Below, piece after piece: positions 1,423-21,231 of a DNA stretch of 21,372 bases; position 1 is the first letter of the stretch, and every line of letters starts with the position of its first letter. The translations under genes were made by a program, and so were the position numbers. The DNA lies in contig JAFGON010000048.1 in assembly GCA_016926475.1 (NCBI GenBank), positions 1 through 21,372 of the forward strand, given 5' to 3'. The notes beneath the pieces were generated by a model. That model was not told the origin of the DNA. It searched no databases and worked only from the letters and a program-made list of their open reading frames with translations. The stretch comes from a candidate division WOR-3 bacterium (GTDB lineage: Bacteria > SDB-A).

Positions 1423-2349
1423 TCAAGAAGAATGTTCTATGTATTCTTGTGCGGAGAAAGCGGCGATAGCTCCATCTCCAACAGCGGTGGCTACCTGCCG
1501 TAAGTTCTTTTTTCTGACGTCGCCGGCGGCGAAAAGCCCTGGGATGCCCGTTCTCATTTCGTCATCGGTCAAAAGATAACCTCTTTCGTCGAGAACATTA
1601 AAACTCTTGAAAATATCGGTGTTTGGTACTGACCCGACCAAAACGAAAACTCCGTCTATCGGCATCTCTTTAATTTGGGAGGTCTTGACGTTTTTCAAAA
1701 GCAGGGATCGGACGTTTTTCTCGCCTAAAATTTCCGAGACAACAGTGTCCCACTCGAAATGAATGTTGTCTTTATCAAAAGCGTTTTTTTGGATTATCTT
1801 TTCCGCTCGGAGTTTGTCTCGCCTGTGTATGACGGTGACGCTGGAGCAAATCCTCGAAAGGAAAAGAGCTTCTTTTACAGCCGAGTCTCCGCCGCCTACA
1901 ACCGCGACGTTTTTTCCGCGATAAAAAGGACCGTCGCATGTGGCGCAGTAGGAAACGCCCCTTCCGGTGAATTCCTTTTCGCCTGGCGCTTCCAGTTTTT
2001 TGTCGGTCGTCCCTGTGGCTATTATAACTGATCGGGATTTGATTTCGAATTCTCCGTCGGTAATTATCGCAAACCTGTCGTCTTCTTTTTGTAATTCGGT
2101 GGCAATTTCCATTTCGAGCTGGGCTCCGGCGCCGGAAGCTTGTTCACGCATAATCTGCGAAAGGTCAAAACCTGAAATCCCCCCTGAAACACCCGAATAA
2201 TTTTCGACGATGTCAGTCAGGCTTATTCTGCCGCCGGGGAGAGGCCCCTCGAGAACCAAAGTTTCAACTTCCGCTCTCGCGGCGTATAGAGCCGCGCAGT
2301 ATCCCGCAGGTCCTCCGCCGATTATCACGAGTTGGTATTCGCTTTTCAC
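1423..2349 (-). CDS. trxB: Thioredoxin reductase (NADPH, FAD)
   Basis: Low-molecular-weight flavoprotein that passes electrons from NADPH through FAD and a redox disulfide to thioredoxin in the cytoplasm. The 308 residues match the family's usual length. Visible motifs are the FAD-binding GGGPAG at 11-16, the redox CATC at 135-138, the second Rossmann GGGDSA at 152-157, an HRRDKLR stretch at 175-181 whose arginines recognise the NADPH 2'-phosphate, and the C-terminal FAD-binding GLFAAGDVR at 271-279. Arg-41 replaces the Gln usual in the PGGQ segment. The start is GTG: the upstream frame reaches a stop within eight codons with no ATG, TTG or other GTG. No Shine-Dalgarno is present, and a promoter-like sequence ends just before the GTG (see the promoter entry). 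Divergent from the lamin-tail gene. Function is confident; physiological partner not seen here. Confidence 0.95.
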   Translation of the reverse strand: MKSEYQLVIIGGGPAGYCAALYAARAEVETLVLEGPLPGGRISLTDIVENYSGVSGGISGFDLSQIMREQASGAGAQLEMEIATELQKEDDRFAIITDGEFEIKSRSVIIATGTTDKKLEAPGEKEFTGRGVSYCATCDGPFYRGKNVAVVGGGDSAVKEALFLSRICSSVTVIHRRDKLRAEKIIQKNAFDKDNIHFEWDTVVSEILGEKNVRSLLLKNVKTSQIKEMPIDGVFVLVGSVPNTDIFKSFNVLDERGYLLTDDEMRTGIPGLFAAGDVRKKNLRQVATAVGDGAIAAFSAQEYIEHSS

Positions 2350-2356
2350 GGCGTTA

Positions 2357-2385
2357 AATAAACCACATTTTTATCATTAAATCAA
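2357..2385 (-). promoter_or_regulatory. Probable trxB promoter, near-leaderless
   Basis: On the minus strand: TTGATT at 2385-2380, a 17-nt spacer, then TTTATT at 2362-2357 preceded by TGG (extended -10). The predicted +1 is about 2350, one base before the GTG at 2349. The -10 matches consensus at only four of six bases, so this is a moderate call. An alternative TAAAAA-centred -10 a little upstream has no good -35. Confidence 0.45.
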
Positions 2386-2490
2386 CCCCTGAAAAGATCT
2401 TGTCTATTGGCTCTTTGCTCGTCCGTATTTTCAAATTTAACCCAGATGGAATTTTCCGGTGACGATGTGCTGAATTGGTACAAAATACAG

Positions 2491-2519
2491 TTGACAATTT
2501 ATCCCCTTGCTGGTATAAA
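2491..2519 (+). promoter_or_regulatory. Strong sigma70-type promoter with extended -10; leaderless start
   Basis: TTGACA at 2491-2496, exactly 17 nt of spacer, and TATAAA at 2514-2519 preceded by TGG (extended -10). Counting the last -10 base as -7 puts +1 at 2526, the A of the ATG. No Shine-Dalgarno fits before that ATG. The remaining intergenic DNA (2386-2490) shows no other clear element. Confidence 0.75.
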
Positions 2520-2525
2520 ACAGAT

Positions 2526-3125
2526 ATGAAAACAACTGTGATTTTCTTGATTTTATTGTTCCCAGCTCTGATTCTGTCCAAAGTAAACATAAACGAAGTT
2601 TTTTATAGCATACCTGATTCTCCGGGTTGGAATAATCAAGATCAATGGATAGAGGTGTTCAACTTTTCTAACGAAAAAGTGACGATGAATTCTTGGAAAT
2701 TGGAGACCTCGACAGGGGATGTTTTCACGTTTTCTATTTCTCTCGATCCGAACCAGAGGGTCGTTTTTGTGGCAGACAGCTCTAAATTTATAGCACACTG
2801 GGATTCCTGCCTATCTTCAGCCACTTTGATAGTCGAATACGGAGCATCGATTGATGTGTGCCATAGTGTTGGAAATATTGAAATAAAAGATTCCCAGGGA
2901 GGGGAAATATCTTCAGTCTCTTGGGGCGGGACCGGAACTTCTCCCGCTGTTTCCCCCGGTTATTCTTTGGGGCTTTTCCCAGAAAACAATTTCTCTCCAT
3001 CACCTGAGGATTACACTGTCTGCAAGCCTACCCCTGGCTCGACTAACAGTGAGATTCCGGCTTCAGCCATCAACCCTTCGACGTGGGGCCGAATAAAGGC
3101 GATGTTTTCAACCGAACGCAGGTAA
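2526..3125 (+). CDS. Secreted lamin-tail-domain (LTD) protein
   Basis: 199-residue exported protein. Start chosen at the ATG at 2526 because it begins a clean signal peptide (MKTTVIFLILLFPALILS) and sits at the predicted transcription start; a longer frame from 2475 would place 17 residues before it, upstream of and inside the promoter. The mature part has the lamin-tail pattern: INEVFY at 22-27, a WIEVFN block at 41-46, NSWKL at 55-59, a D-P-N-Q-R-V-V-F strand near 74-81, and the terminal CKPTPGSTN motif at 166-174. LTD domains are immunoglobulin-like folds found in many secreted or surface bacterial proteins; the ligand is not predictable here. The last 25 residues form a polar tail. One base separates its TAA from the TTG of the downstream PorV/PorQ-like gene, so the two are almost certainly co-transcribed. 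Confidence 0.8.
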   Translation: MKTTVIFLILLFPALILSKVNINEVFYSIPDSPGWNNQDQWIEVFNFSNEKVTMNSWKLETSTGDVFTFSISLDPNQRVVFVADSSKFIAHWDSCLSSATLIVEYGASIDVCHSVGNIEIKDSQGGEISSVSWGGTGTSPAVSPGYSLGLFPENNFSPSPEDYTVCKPTPGSTNSEIPASAINPSTWGRIKAMFSTERR

Positions 3126-3126
3126 T

Positions 3127-4125
3127 TTGAGACTTAGAGCTTTCCTTTTTTTGGTGTTTTTACCGGTTGCCTGTCTTCTGGGTTCAAAATACGCCGGAGA
3201 GTTCATGTCTCTGGGCTTTGGGGCCAGAAGTTTCGCCATGGGGCAAATGGAATCTAATTTGACCGGGGAACATTCATTTTACGGAAACCCCGCGGCTATG
3301 AATTTTTCCAGAAAATCATACAGCGCTACACATGCCTACGTCTTCTCGAGCAATCTTTCGATAAACGGATTTTCGGTTATATTTCCCGAAGAGAAAAGAT
3401 CCATGGGTATTGGTCTTGTTCACCTCGGATTATCGGGAATACCATACACAGTTGACGCTTTAAGGGATTATGGTGAAGATGGTTTGCCGGGCACCAACGA
3501 TCAGGGTGAAAACAACGGAGCACTTGACCCCGGTGAATGGCTGGATTATGACATGGTTTCTTATTTCAGCGACGACGATTACACCATGTACGTCTCTTAC
3601 GGGCACAAGGCAAATCAAAATCTATCCTTTGGAGCTTCGGCAAAAGTGGTCTACAGAAAAATTGGTGATTATTCGGCATACGGTGCCGGCGTGGATTTTG
3701 GCTGTTTCTATAGAACTCAATTTTTCGACTTGTCGGCGGTTTTGAGAAACGCCACCACTACTGTTCTCTCTTGGAGCACGGGTACAAAAGAGTACGCCTA
3801 CCCGTTTCTAAAGAGCGGGATTTCTGTTAAAGCCCCCCTTTCATGGAGAGACGTGGGACTTGTCTTCGGAATAGAGACAGACATATATTTTGAAAACAGA
3901 AAACTCGCCTCGCAATGGAATATTTCTTCACTCAGCATTGACAGCCATTACGGAGCGGAAATTTCAATAAAGGAAAACTTTTTCCTGAGAGCGGGAAGCA
4001 ACACCGGTCATTTGACAGCCGGTGGCGGATTCATATACAGGTCTTTTTCCGTGGATTACGGTTTTATGAGCCACCAGCAGCTTGGTTCGACTCATAGATT
4101 TTCAATCTCCTATTTTCCTGGCTAA
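3127..4125 (+). CDS. PorV/PorQ-family (UPF0164-like) outer-membrane beta-barrel protein
   Basis: 332 residues from a TTG start, the only start that includes the signal peptide (MRLRAFLFLVFLPVACLLGS); the next in-frame Met, residue 27, would remove it. An AGGT lies about four bases before the TTG. The mature N-terminus has the family hallmarks: AGEFMSLGFGARSFAMG at 23-39 and GNPAAMN at 53-59. The rest is alternating amphipathic beta strands with aromatic girdles, ending in RFSISYFPG, consistent with an outer-membrane barrel. Relatives in FCB-group bacteria include type IX secretion components and transport-like barrels; which role applies here is open. Residues 114-142 form an unusually acidic loop (D114, E117, D118, D125, E128, D134, E137, D140) with spacing like calcium-binding repeats. 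Second gene of the pair started at 2526; its stop codon overlaps the convergent phosphorylase gene by 4 bp. Confidence 0.8.
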   Translation: MRLRAFLFLVFLPVACLLGSKYAGEFMSLGFGARSFAMGQMESNLTGEHSFYGNPAAMNFSRKSYSATHAYVFSSNLSINGFSVIFPEEKRSMGIGLVHLGLSGIPYTVDALRDYGEDGLPGTNDQGENNGALDPGEWLDYDMVSYFSDDDYTMYVSYGHKANQNLSFGASAKVVYRKIGDYSAYGAGVDFGCFYRTQFFDLSAVLRNATTTVLSWSTGTKEYAYPFLKSGISVKAPLSWRDVGLVFGIETDIYFENRKLASQWNISSLSIDSHYGAEISIKENFFLRAGSNTGHLTAGGGFIYRSFSVDYGFMSHQQLGSTHRFSISYFPG

Positions 4126-12036: not shown

Positions 12037-12453
12037 TTATTTGTTTATGTTTAGAAGAACTGCGCCAGTGAAAACAAGCACAAAACCGATAACCTGGAGA
12101 AAAGAGAAGGTCTCTTTGAAAAAAATCATTGACAGGATTATAGTGACAATTGGATAAAGAGCAGTCATGGACACTACAATAGAAGCGCTTCCGTGTGAGA
12201 GGGCTCCGTAAAAAGCCAAAGTGCCTAAAGTTCCCGCCGCCATGACGAGAAATATAAAAAGCAGAGCCGGAAACTTAATATCGATAGAGGACATGCGGTT
12301 TTTGACGAACAAAAGAAGAAACAAACCGAAAAGAGGGGCTATCAGGTTGTTTATACAAGTGACAGCCAACGGGCTGTTGTATTTTGTCGCGAGTTTTCCT
12401 AAAAAACCCCAGATTCCCCAGAAAAGTATCGCCAGAATGGAATACAAGAGCAA
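12037..12453 (-). CDS. Half-size EamA/DMT-family inner-membrane transporter
   Basis: 138 residues with about five hydrophobic helices, the size of single-EamA-domain proteins (COG2510-like) that are thought to dimerise, rather than the ten-helix fused form. The motifs ILFWGIWGFLGKLA at 8-21 and SMTALYPIVTIILSMIFFKE in the second half, ending in GFVLVFTGAVLLN, match the EamA pattern. The substrate is unknown; relatives export metabolites or drugs. The TTG start is firm: it directly follows the argS TAG and is preceded, at five bases, by a near-perfect GGAGGTGA inside the last codons of argS. It is followed after 31 bp by the GlmL-like gene. Confidence 0.85.
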   Translation of the reverse strand: MLLYSILAILFWGIWGFLGKLATKYNSPLAVTCINNLIAPLFGLFLLLFVKNRMSSIDIKFPALLFIFLVMAAGTLGTLAFYGALSHGSASIVVSMTALYPIVTIILSMIFFKETFSFLQVIGFVLVFTGAVLLNINK

Positions 12454-17047: not shown

Positions 17048-17076
17048 TTTATATTATGCCACAAATGAAAGGTCAA
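17048..17076 (-). promoter_or_regulatory. Promoter of the NHL-to-phosphorylase operon
   Basis: Minus strand: TTGACC at 17076-17071, 17-nt spacer, TATAAA at 17053-17048; predicted +1 near 17041, giving a leader of about 24 nt that holds an A-rich stretch and a GGAG Shine-Dalgarno. The -35 contains the TGA stop of the transglutaminase gene, so read-through from that gene is also possible. Confidence 0.6.
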
Positions 17077-18813: not shown

Positions 18814-20529
18814 TCAACCTCCGTGCATGAGTAAAAATTCCGGAAAAATGTCTTCGCTTGCTGACCTCATAAAGTCTTCGAAAACGCCGAATGATCCACG
18901 CGGCAACCTTTCCCCCCAGAACCTGACAGCAGAAGAGAAAAGTGTGTTTTGATTCAGAATTTCAAAATCAGCCCTTGAGAAAGGGGACTGACGGACGACC
19001 GGATAAACTGATAAAAATTTTCTGTCCCCTTTTATTTCGGTTTTTTGTATTATTTGTCCCGGAAATGGAAAAAGAAAATACCCTCCGATGAAAAAAGGCT
19101 TGAAACACGCGAGGAATGGTGATGGTTTGAAAAGATAAAGCGCTGAAAATCCGTCTTCATAGTCGTAGAGATTTCCAGAAAAACAAGCTTGAATCGTCAG
19201 CGAGTCAGAAAAGTCTCTCATGGAGAGATAATCCGGAGAGAACTTTGAATCAATGGACTGGATCTGAGAGATCAACCTTTCAATGATTTGCCCGTCATTT
19301 TTCAGCGCGATCAAAAAATCTCCGGTCAGGTTGATTTTGAGGTTGTATAATACAATGTTGCCTTCGATTTCAACGAATAATCCGACTGCGCAGGAAGATC
19401 TAAGCGGTTCAAACCATGGAGTTTTGATTAATTCCCCGTTTAAAACATCATAAGCCCATGAGTTCTGGCATTTCCCTGGAAGATGACCCAAAGGCGCTTT
19501 AAAAGTAGGGTCAACCCAAAAAGAATCATCTATTACTAAAAAAATGTCTTCAAAGCAGGGAAAGACGCCAAAAGATTCTCCGTTCTCTGAAATTCTCGGT
19601 GAAACCAGAAATATTTTTGCGTTTTGAGTTTCACCCAAGCAGGAATACAAAAAAACCGCTATTTCAAAAGGGGTGGCTTCCCTGTCTGCTAAAATTTCAT
19701 TTGCGCTTTTCACTCTGAAAAGGGATATTTCGAGAGGAATATTTTTCAAATTTACATTGTCTTTTAAAAAACCATACAGTTTAGAGAAATTTTCGAAACC
19801 GTTTTGCTCTTTGTCAAAACTTGCTACAAGCTCTTCTGCTTTTTTTGACAGATTCTTGAGAAAATATTGCTGATCAGTGATCTGAACGAAAATTCCGAGA
19901 GCGGAGTCGAAAACTTCATAAAATATATTTCTGTCACTCGGAAATCCTTGGGAGGGTATCAACCCCGAAAAGGCGCCTGATATTTTCAGGTGGACATAAG
20001 AACCGGAGGAAGGAGGTACGAAATAGAAAACAGAATAGCCCCCGGTGACTTCATCTACCGGCATCAAGTCGATATAGTACATATTTCCCGGGACCGCATT
20101 ATTGTCCGCCCATGCTCTAACCAAGGTGACTTCTGTGTATTGAGGGTTGAACGGGATTTCAATTTCATCGGATGTAAAAATTTTTATGTGACGGATAAAA
20201 GAATCTTCGGATACCGTATCTGTTATGAAAATTGTGTCAGGGTCAAAATCCTCACCCTTCATCCATTTGGAGAGTTCTTCTCTCGCCTTTATATTGAACT
20301 CGCCATTACCCATGGATATCGAATGGAGAAGGCTTAAAGAATAAGAAGTCTGTCCTTTTTCAAAGCCGACCATAGCTCTTTGGAGCACCTGTTCGTCGGT
20401 AGCTGTTCCGTTTTGTATCAGAGAATCAAGTTTGTATATGAACGAAGAGAGGTCTCTTTCATTATACTGATTGTGAAATGAAATCTGGAACATAAAGAGG
20501 AATATAAAAACCGCGACATTTGGAAGCAT
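18814..20529 (-). CDS. Exported transglutaminase-fold protein, apparently catalytically dead (pseudoenzyme)
   Basis: 571 residues. It has a hydrophobic, uncharged signal peptide (MLPNVAVFIFLFMFQIS), a short helical segment (about 25-92, possibly TPR-like), a beta-rich middle (about 100-220) and a transglutaminase-like core (about 265-371). Aligned by eye with the neighbouring active protein, SANEILADREATPFE at 275-289 matches SQTLAQGKGDCKDK, which puts Thr-286 where the catalytic Cys should be. The His position falls on Asp-328 (FEDIFLV against FNHVIALV). The Asp survives as Asp-340 in the family-typical WVDPT, and both cores end in a shared L-x-KTP. A binding or regulatory role is likely, but only by inference. 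First gene of its transcript, with no Shine-Dalgarno; the promoter ends almost at the ATG. Confidence 0.7.
   Translation of the reverse strand: MLPNVAVFIFLFMFQISFHNQYNERDLSSFIYKLDSLIQNGTATDEQVLQRAMVGFEKGQTSYSLSLLHSISMGNGEFNIKAREELSKWMKGEDFDPDTIFITDTVSEDSFIRHIKIFTSDEIEIPFNPQYTEVTLVRAWADNNAVPGNMYYIDLMPVDEVTGGYSVFYFVPPSSGSYVHLKISGAFSGLIPSQGFPSDRNIFYEVFDSALGIFVQITDQQYFLKNLSKKAEELVASFDKEQNGFENFSKLYGFLKDNVNLKNIPLEISLFRVKSANEILADREATPFEIAVFLYSCLGETQNAKIFLVSPRISENGESFGVFPCFEDIFLVIDDSFWVDPTFKAPLGHLPGKCQNSWAYDVLNGELIKTPWFEPLRSSCAVGLFVEIEGNIVLYNLKINLTGDFLIALKNDGQIIERLISQIQSIDSKFSPDYLSMRDFSDSLTIQACFSGNLYDYEDGFSALYLFKPSPFLACFKPFFIGGYFLFPFPGQIIQKTEIKGDRKFLSVYPVVRQSPFSRADFEILNQNTLFSSAVRFWGERLPRGSFGVFEDFMRSASEDIFPEFLLMHGG
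18817..18822 (-). promoter_or_regulatory. Ribosome binding site fixing the TTG start of the transglutaminase gene
   Basis: GGAGGT on the minus strand, separated by four bases (TGAT, including the upstream stop) from the TTG at 18812-18810. It is formed by the Gly-Gly codons that end the preceding gene. Confidence 0.8.
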
Positions 20530-20537
20530 TGCCAGTA

Positions 20538-20566
20538 ATGATAAGTTTTTTCCGTTGACAGGTAAA
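20538..20566 (-). promoter_or_regulatory. Probable promoter of the pseudo-transglutaminase gene, near-leaderless
   Basis: Minus strand: TTTACC at 20566-20561, 17-nt spacer, TATCAT at 20543-20538 (five of six matches). Predicted +1 is 20531-20530, one or two bases before the ATG at 20529. It interlocks with the rightward tRNA promoter. Confidence 0.5.
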
Positions 20567-20675: not shown

Positions 20676-20748
20676 GCGCCCGTGGCTCAATGGATAGAGC
20701 GTCGGACTACGAATCCGCAGGTTGCAGGTTCGACTCCTGCCGGGCGCG
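20676..20748 (+). tRNA. tRNA-Arg (anticodon ACG, TadA substrate)
   Basis: A 73-nt cloverleaf: acceptor GCGCCCG (20676-20682) pairs with CGGGCGC (20741-20747), D-stem GCTC/GAGC, loop CTACGAA with anticodon ACG at 20709-20711, T-stem GCAGG/CCTGC with TTCGACT loop, discriminator G. The first anticodon-stem pair (T20702, C20718) is a mismatch. A34 at 20709 in the U33-A-C-G context is the classic site of A-to-I editing by TadA. CCA is not encoded. Confidence 0.95.
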
Positions 20749-20764
20749 ATTATTCCATTGATAT

Positions 20765-20771
20765 GAGGTGA
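20765..20771 (+). promoter_or_regulatory. Ribosome binding site of tadA
   Basis: GAGGTGA four bases before the ATG at 20776. It follows tRNA-Arg by 16 bases, so tadA has its own initiation signal within the tRNA transcript. Confidence 0.8.
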
Positions 20772-20775
20772 TTTT

Positions 20776-21231
20776 ATGACAGATGAAATATACATGAAGA
20801 AAGCGCTGGAAGAAGCTGAAAAAGCTTCAGAAGAAGATGAAGTTCCCGTTGGCGCTGTAGTTGTCAAAGATGGAGTCGTTATAGGTCGGGGTCACAACAG
20901 GACAGAATCACTTCTTGACGCCTCCGCCCACGCGGAGATAATCGCGATGACAGCGGCGGCTGAAACTCTCGGAAACTGGAGGCTCGAGGGATGTCAACTG
21001 TATTCGACAGTCGAACCCTGCATTATGTGCACGGGAGCGTGCCTTCTTTTCAGGATATCGAGGATAATATACGGTGCGGAAGATCCCAAATTCGGAGGTT
21101 GCATCTCGCAGGCGAAAATTCCGGAGATTCCGACGCTGAACCACAAGATAGAAGTCATAGGTGGAATTCTGGCAACTGAATCCGCACAGTTGATGAAAAA
21201 ATTTTTCAGTGCAAAAAGAAACAGACAATAG
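20776..21231 (+). CDS. tadA: tRNA-specific adenosine deaminase
   Basis: Zinc deaminase that converts A34 of tRNA-Arg(ACG) to inosine, so that one tRNA reads CGU, CGC and CGA. The cytidine-deaminase fold is complete in 151 residues: GAVVVKDGVVIGRGHNR at 26-42, the catalytic HAE at 52-54 (His-52 zinc ligand, Glu-54 proton shuttle), and PCIMC at 81-85 giving zinc ligands Cys-82 and Cys-85, spaced as in E. coli TadA. The RIIYGAEDPKFGG segment at 96-108 is also typical of TadA rather than of guanine or cytosine deaminases. The start has a strong Shine-Dalgarno. The gene lies 27 bp after the gene for its substrate tRNA and 62 bp before a tRNA-Ser; no terminator is evident between the tRNAs and tadA. 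Confidence 0.96.
   Translation: MTDEIYMKKALEEAEKASEEDEVPVGAVVVKDGVVIGRGHNRTESLLDASAHAEIIAMTAAAETLGNWRLEGCQLYSTVEPCIMCTGACLLFRISRIIYGAEDPKFGGCISQAKIPEIPTLNHKIEVIGGILATESAQLMKKFFSAKRNRQ

Follow-up and report, generated by a model that had tools for sequence, protein, structure and literature searches.

Predicted leaderless initiation at a lamin-tail gene, and probably at trxB, in a WOR-3-like genome that mixes initiation signals

Leaderless ('TA-led') genes are widespread though not dominant in bacteria and reach their highest frequencies in Actinobacteria and in Deinococcus-Thermus; the Deinococcus-Thermus average exceeds 30% of genes (Zheng et al. 2011, PMC3160421). In Deinococcus-Thermus, the -10 region adjoins the open reading frames (PMC12340547). 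Caulobacter crescentus has 375 leaderless mRNAs, corresponding to 9.6% of its coding sequences and forming a minority class (PMC4117421). For Sulfolobus, an arrangement in which proximal genes are leaderless and distal genes carry a Shine-Dalgarno (SD) sequence is attributed to Tolstrup (2000), as cited in PMC3160421. Leaderless initiation is already known from many bacteria, and the archaeal arrangement is an already published version of the lineage rule discussed below; our literature search found no report linking WOR-3 with leaderless genes. Here, we will describe a divergent gene pair from a WOR-3-like genome, a lamin-tail (LTD) gene and trxB, and then focus on how far the initiation signals at this pair are shared by the rest of the genome and by its relatives.

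The window is the whole stretch of DNA analysed at this locus (21,372 nucleotides), contig 48 of a 106-contig, 2.15 Mb WOR-3-like assembly (G000), of which 2.04 Mb were analysed. By trxB, its nearest named record is a candidate division WOR-3 MAG (76% identity). Comparison genomes were G001 and G002, of the same genus as G000, and G003, of the same family and a different genus. A self-trained coding-potential model with a start-codon prior called 1652 genes in G000, and no upstream signal entered the choice of starts. Divergent genes (n=314; 160 without and 154 with an SD) served as a proxy for transcript-first genes and were set against 749 internal genes. Near-start promoters were counted at a threshold of at least 8 bits, with the -10 ending 5-7 nt before the start codon and dinucleotide shuffles as the null, and +1 was assigned by the usual count, in which the last base of the -10 is -7. 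The 3' end of 16S rRNA was found in none of the four family assemblies: G000, G001 and G002 are without 16S, and G003 holds the 5' part alone.

The intergenic region between the two genes (2350-2525) would contain two back-to-back promoters of the housekeeping (sigma-70) type, presumably recognised by the corresponding sigma factor (Table 1). Our overall reading, which we regard as likely from the sequences compared here, is that these promoters make the LTD gene leaderless and trxB probably so, within a genome of mixed mechanisms.

Table 1. Positions of the genes and putative promoter elements within the window
Feature	Position	Strand	Evidence or remark
trxB, thioredoxin-disulfide reductase, 308 aa, start GTG 2349	1423..2349	-	TIGR01292 380 bits, cut-off 343
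trxB weak -10-like TTTATT, TGG just upstream	2357..2362	-	seven nt to GTG; 8.0 bits, shuffle P 0.008
trxB alternative promoter TTTTCA-16-TAAAAA	2368..2395	-	10.3 bits, 18 nt from GTG
trxB -35-like TTGATT	2380..2385	-	same element 28-30 nt before GTG in G000, G001, G002
LTD -35 TTGACA	2491..2496	+	aligned in all four family genomes
LTD -10 TATAAA, TGG just upstream	2514..2519	+	six nt to ATG; 15.2 bits
LTD gene, secreted Lamin Tail Domain protein, 199 aa	2526..3125	+	Pfam PF00932 E 1.3e-11
PorV/PorQ-like outer membrane protein, second gene of rightward unit, weak SD AGGT	3127..4125	+	NF052325 E 1.9e-32, under curated cut-off
Promoter TTTACC-17-TATCAT, eight nt before ATG 20529	20538..20566	-	9.3 bits, scored at distance 44 from alternative start 20493

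The rightward promoter is present as the initial annotation had described it, a TTGACA and a TGG-TATAAA separated by 17 nt that place the predicted +1 on the A of the ATG at 2526. Its score was matched by none of 4000 dinucleotide shuffles, and it is the top near-start site among the 763 upstream regions scanned in the analysed part of G000. The same arrangement is found across the family, with TTGACA-17-TATATT-7-ATG in G001, TTGACA-18-TATATT-6-ATG in G002 and TTGACA-17-TACCTT-7-ATG in G003; the best promoter site ends 6-7 nt from the ATG in all four genomes, and in none of them does an SD precede the gene. With a -10 that puts +1 at the start codon and no SD, the LTD gene has both sequence marks of a leaderless gene, and the prediction that it is leaderless is well supported. 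The absence of an SD at the LTD gene and at trxB, next to strong SDs at other genes of the window, had likewise been pointed out, and inspection of the upstream regions agrees on both counts, with GGAGG before purC, GGAGGT before the gene at 17073, GGAGGTGA before that at 12037 and GAGGTGA before tadA. The PorV/PorQ-like protein encoded immediately downstream of the LTD gene and a sub-threshold match to a type IX sorting domain elsewhere in the genome (L065:3413-4831) may be signs that the WOR-3-like lineage has a type IX secretion-like system.

On the leftward side, TTGATT-17-TGG-TTTATT lies where the initial annotation had placed it, with a predicted +1 at 2350, one base 5' of the GTG, but its strength is open to question: the -10 is weak, has no A at the key second position, and competes with a higher-scoring promoter located 11 nt farther upstream (10.3 versus 8.0 bits). 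It is possible, though we think it doubtful, that the LTD gene alone is leaderless and that trxB is transcribed from this competitor, with a predicted leader of 11-12 nt that has no SD and would offer the ribosome weak non-SD contacts. Such a leader fits the scores in G000, but no -10-like element occurs at the matching place in G001 or G002, whereas the TTGATT, the TG ahead of the -10, the distance of 28-30 nt from TTGATT to the GTG and the lack of an SD are all kept in G000, G001 and G002. The -10 hexamer itself is TTTTTT in G001 and G002, where the near-start site scores 5.8 and 3.3 bits, respectively; it is the top-scoring site in none of the three genomes, and no trxB-like promoter other than trxB's own was found in G000. 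Leaderless initiation at trxB is a moderately supported prediction, in which transcription would probably begin at the GTG or one base before it, from a weak promoter of the extended -10 type (TGn plus a T-rich hexamer), to yield an essentially leaderless mRNA with a GUG start. In G003, trxB is preceded by a normal SD (AAGGAG), and a TATAAT lies 19 nt upstream; the same-genus genomes are without an SD, a difference suggesting that trxB changed its mode of initiation in the history of the family. It is conceivable, but in our view unlikely, that trxB of this genus shifted from the SD-led state kept in G003 to leaderless initiation at GUG, driven by an unusual promoter (TTGATT, TGn and a T-rich hexamer) that an alternative sigma factor or an activator recognises, which would link redox control to leader-independent translation.

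Both predictions depend on the start codons. The gene caller itself picked both, but by narrow coding-score margins (1.2 and 1.6), and they could be misplaced, with the true starts downstream and ordinary leaders on both mRNAs. We consider this very unlikely. The ATG at 2526 gives an N-terminus with signal-peptide-like character and the GTG at 2349 a full thioredoxin-reductase N-terminus (TIGR01292, residues 5-304), and starting downstream would remove the signal peptide from the LTD protein or the FAD-binding motif from the reductase. In addition, the LTD start codons are aligned across the four family genomes, and random start errors would not yield the sharp peak at 5-7 nt that is seen genome-wide.

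This peak was evident in several counts. Near-start promoters precede 28 of the 314 divergent genes of G000 against a shuffle expectation of 2.4; all 28 genes lack an SD, and none of the 154 SD-led divergent genes has such a promoter (internal genes, 9/749). When the promoter model was left free in its placement, it converged on TTGACA-17-TATAAT; the distances it found were bimodal, the near-start mode showing the sharp peak at 5-7 nt and a shoulder at 9-10 nt, and it assigned to 5-7 nt about 31 of the 160 no-SD but only about 0.5 of the 154 SD divergent genes; its training genes included those scored, an overlap that is mitigated by the shuffles, by the consensus counts and by independent counts in G001 and G002. 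Consensus TTGACA/TATAAT sites in no-SD divergent genes are in excess at two distances from the start codon, ending 5-7 and 9-10 nt ahead of it, and the promoters of SD-led divergent genes begin about 18 nt upstream. Counts of TTGAC-N18-TAnnnT-N-ATG, which use no gene calling, gave the 5-7 nt peak in G000 (15 versus 5.4 expected), G001 (at least 14 versus 4.3) and G002 (14 versus 3.6). The upstream regions of G000 are 68% A+T, and near-start promoters might be functionless chance matches in such DNA; this is extremely improbable given the excess over dinucleotide shuffling, the full segregation from SD genes and the conservation across genomes. Since 28 sites were found where 2.4 were expected, all at genes without an SD and none at the 154 SD genes, we take the predicted leaderless class of G000 to be real, and it is visible also in G001 and G002. 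All three genomes show, in addition, a smaller second excess of promoters 9-10 nt before an ATG, with predicted leaders of about 2-4 nt.

The leaderless candidates start with ATG (22), GTG (5) or TTG (1) and the SD-led divergent genes with ATG (129), TTG (18) or GTG (7); the GTG-versus-TTG contrast between the two groups (Fisher P 0.022) comes from small numbers, and a purine preference at +1 would account for it. No functional theme is obvious among the candidates, which include LepA, NAD synthase, RibD, two Sir2 deacylases, TetR, ABC and ROK proteins and two transposase-like genes. The two Sir2-family deacylase genes (L043:3603-4307 and L113:18915-19661) both have a near-start promoter and no SD. 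A survey of 60 genomes found the strongest near-start excess in G032 (46 versus 6), with 58 versus 24 in family f1 and 579 versus 412 in the others; the excess is not peculiar to the WOR-3-like family, and several unrelated genomes are comparable or stronger.

The initial annotation had gone further and proposed a lineage rule, with transcript-first genes leaderless and operon-internal genes SD-led. Within the window the rule looks attractive, as trxB, the LTD gene and the gene at 18814-20529 have no SD and promoter-like sites near their starts, whereas several internal genes have strong SDs. Genome-wide scoring of -10-to-start distance and SD strength, the check suggested with the rule, instead found about half of the transcript-first genes to be SD-led. 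An SD is present at 49% of divergent and 57% of internal genes by a 4-nt match (controls 12-20%) and at 33% and 34% by a 5-nt match (controls 3-5%), and this parity is much the same among more confidently placed starts. The share of divergent genes that look leaderless runs from 9% (28/314, at least 8 bits) to 14% (about 44/314, free-placement model), as counted by a model that demands a -35 and is bound to overlook leaderless genes without one. Because SDs are similarly frequent at transcript-first and internal genes, and with the promoters of SD-led divergent genes lying about 18 nt or more upstream, the rule is unsupported and has next to no chance of being correct: leaderless genes are a minority class among the transcript-first genes of G000 rather than a species-wide rule. 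Neither an SD nor a near-start promoter was found at 113 of the 160 no-SD divergent genes, so wrong starts or other mechanisms are still common in this group; among these 113 genes TAnnnT does not form a clear peak at the start codon, and their weak SD matches are at background level.

The window is unrepresentative of the genome and locally rich in near-start promoters, since its third transcript-first gene, 18814-20529 on the minus strand, also lacks an SD, and eight nt separate its -10 from the ATG; this gene has a signal-peptide-like start and is a near-leaderless candidate. Beyond it, at 20676-21231 (+), a tRNA-Arg(ACG) is followed after 27 nt by the SD-led gene of a tadA-like deaminase, an assignment made from the sequence; A34 of this tRNA is the known substrate of such a deaminase, and the two may be co-transcribed behind a tRNA-Lys(CTT).

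G000 would thus mix mechanisms: most of its genes with an identifiable signal are SD-led, and a minority, which appears largely limited to transcript-first genes that have no SD, is predicted to be leaderless. At the LTD gene, transcription is predicted to begin on the A of the ATG and to give an mRNA without a 5' leader, and the ribosome would therefore have to recognise a 5'-terminal AUG. The WOR-3-like family can be added to the lineages with a real predicted leaderless class, for which we found no earlier report, and the conserved LTD example is usable as a test locus. Gene finders that assume SD leaders may misplace the starts of about one-tenth of the transcript-first genes of G000, and the pattern seen locally at a few genes has proved poor ground for a lineage rule.

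The predicted class resembles the leaderless genes described by Zheng et al. (2011, PMC3160421), in which the -10 puts +1 at the start codon, an SD is missing and transcript-proximal genes only are expected to be affected. In contrast to Deinococcus-Thermus, with more than 30% of genes (PMC3160421), it comprises about 9-14% of divergent genes. A -10 beside the open reading frame, giving a leaderless mRNA, is shared with Deinococcus-Thermus (PMC12340547), but the promoters found here, by a model that required a -35, have a clear TTGACA-like -35 at 17 nt. The Sulfolobus arrangement, as far as it is summarised in PMC3160421, corresponds to the proposed rule, from which the WOR-3-like genome differs in having an SD on about half of its transcript-first genes. 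Whereas the leaderless mRNAs of C. crescentus come from 5' mapping and ribosome profiling and ours are predicted, the two genomes are alike in mixing SD, non-SD and leaderless genes (PMC4117421).
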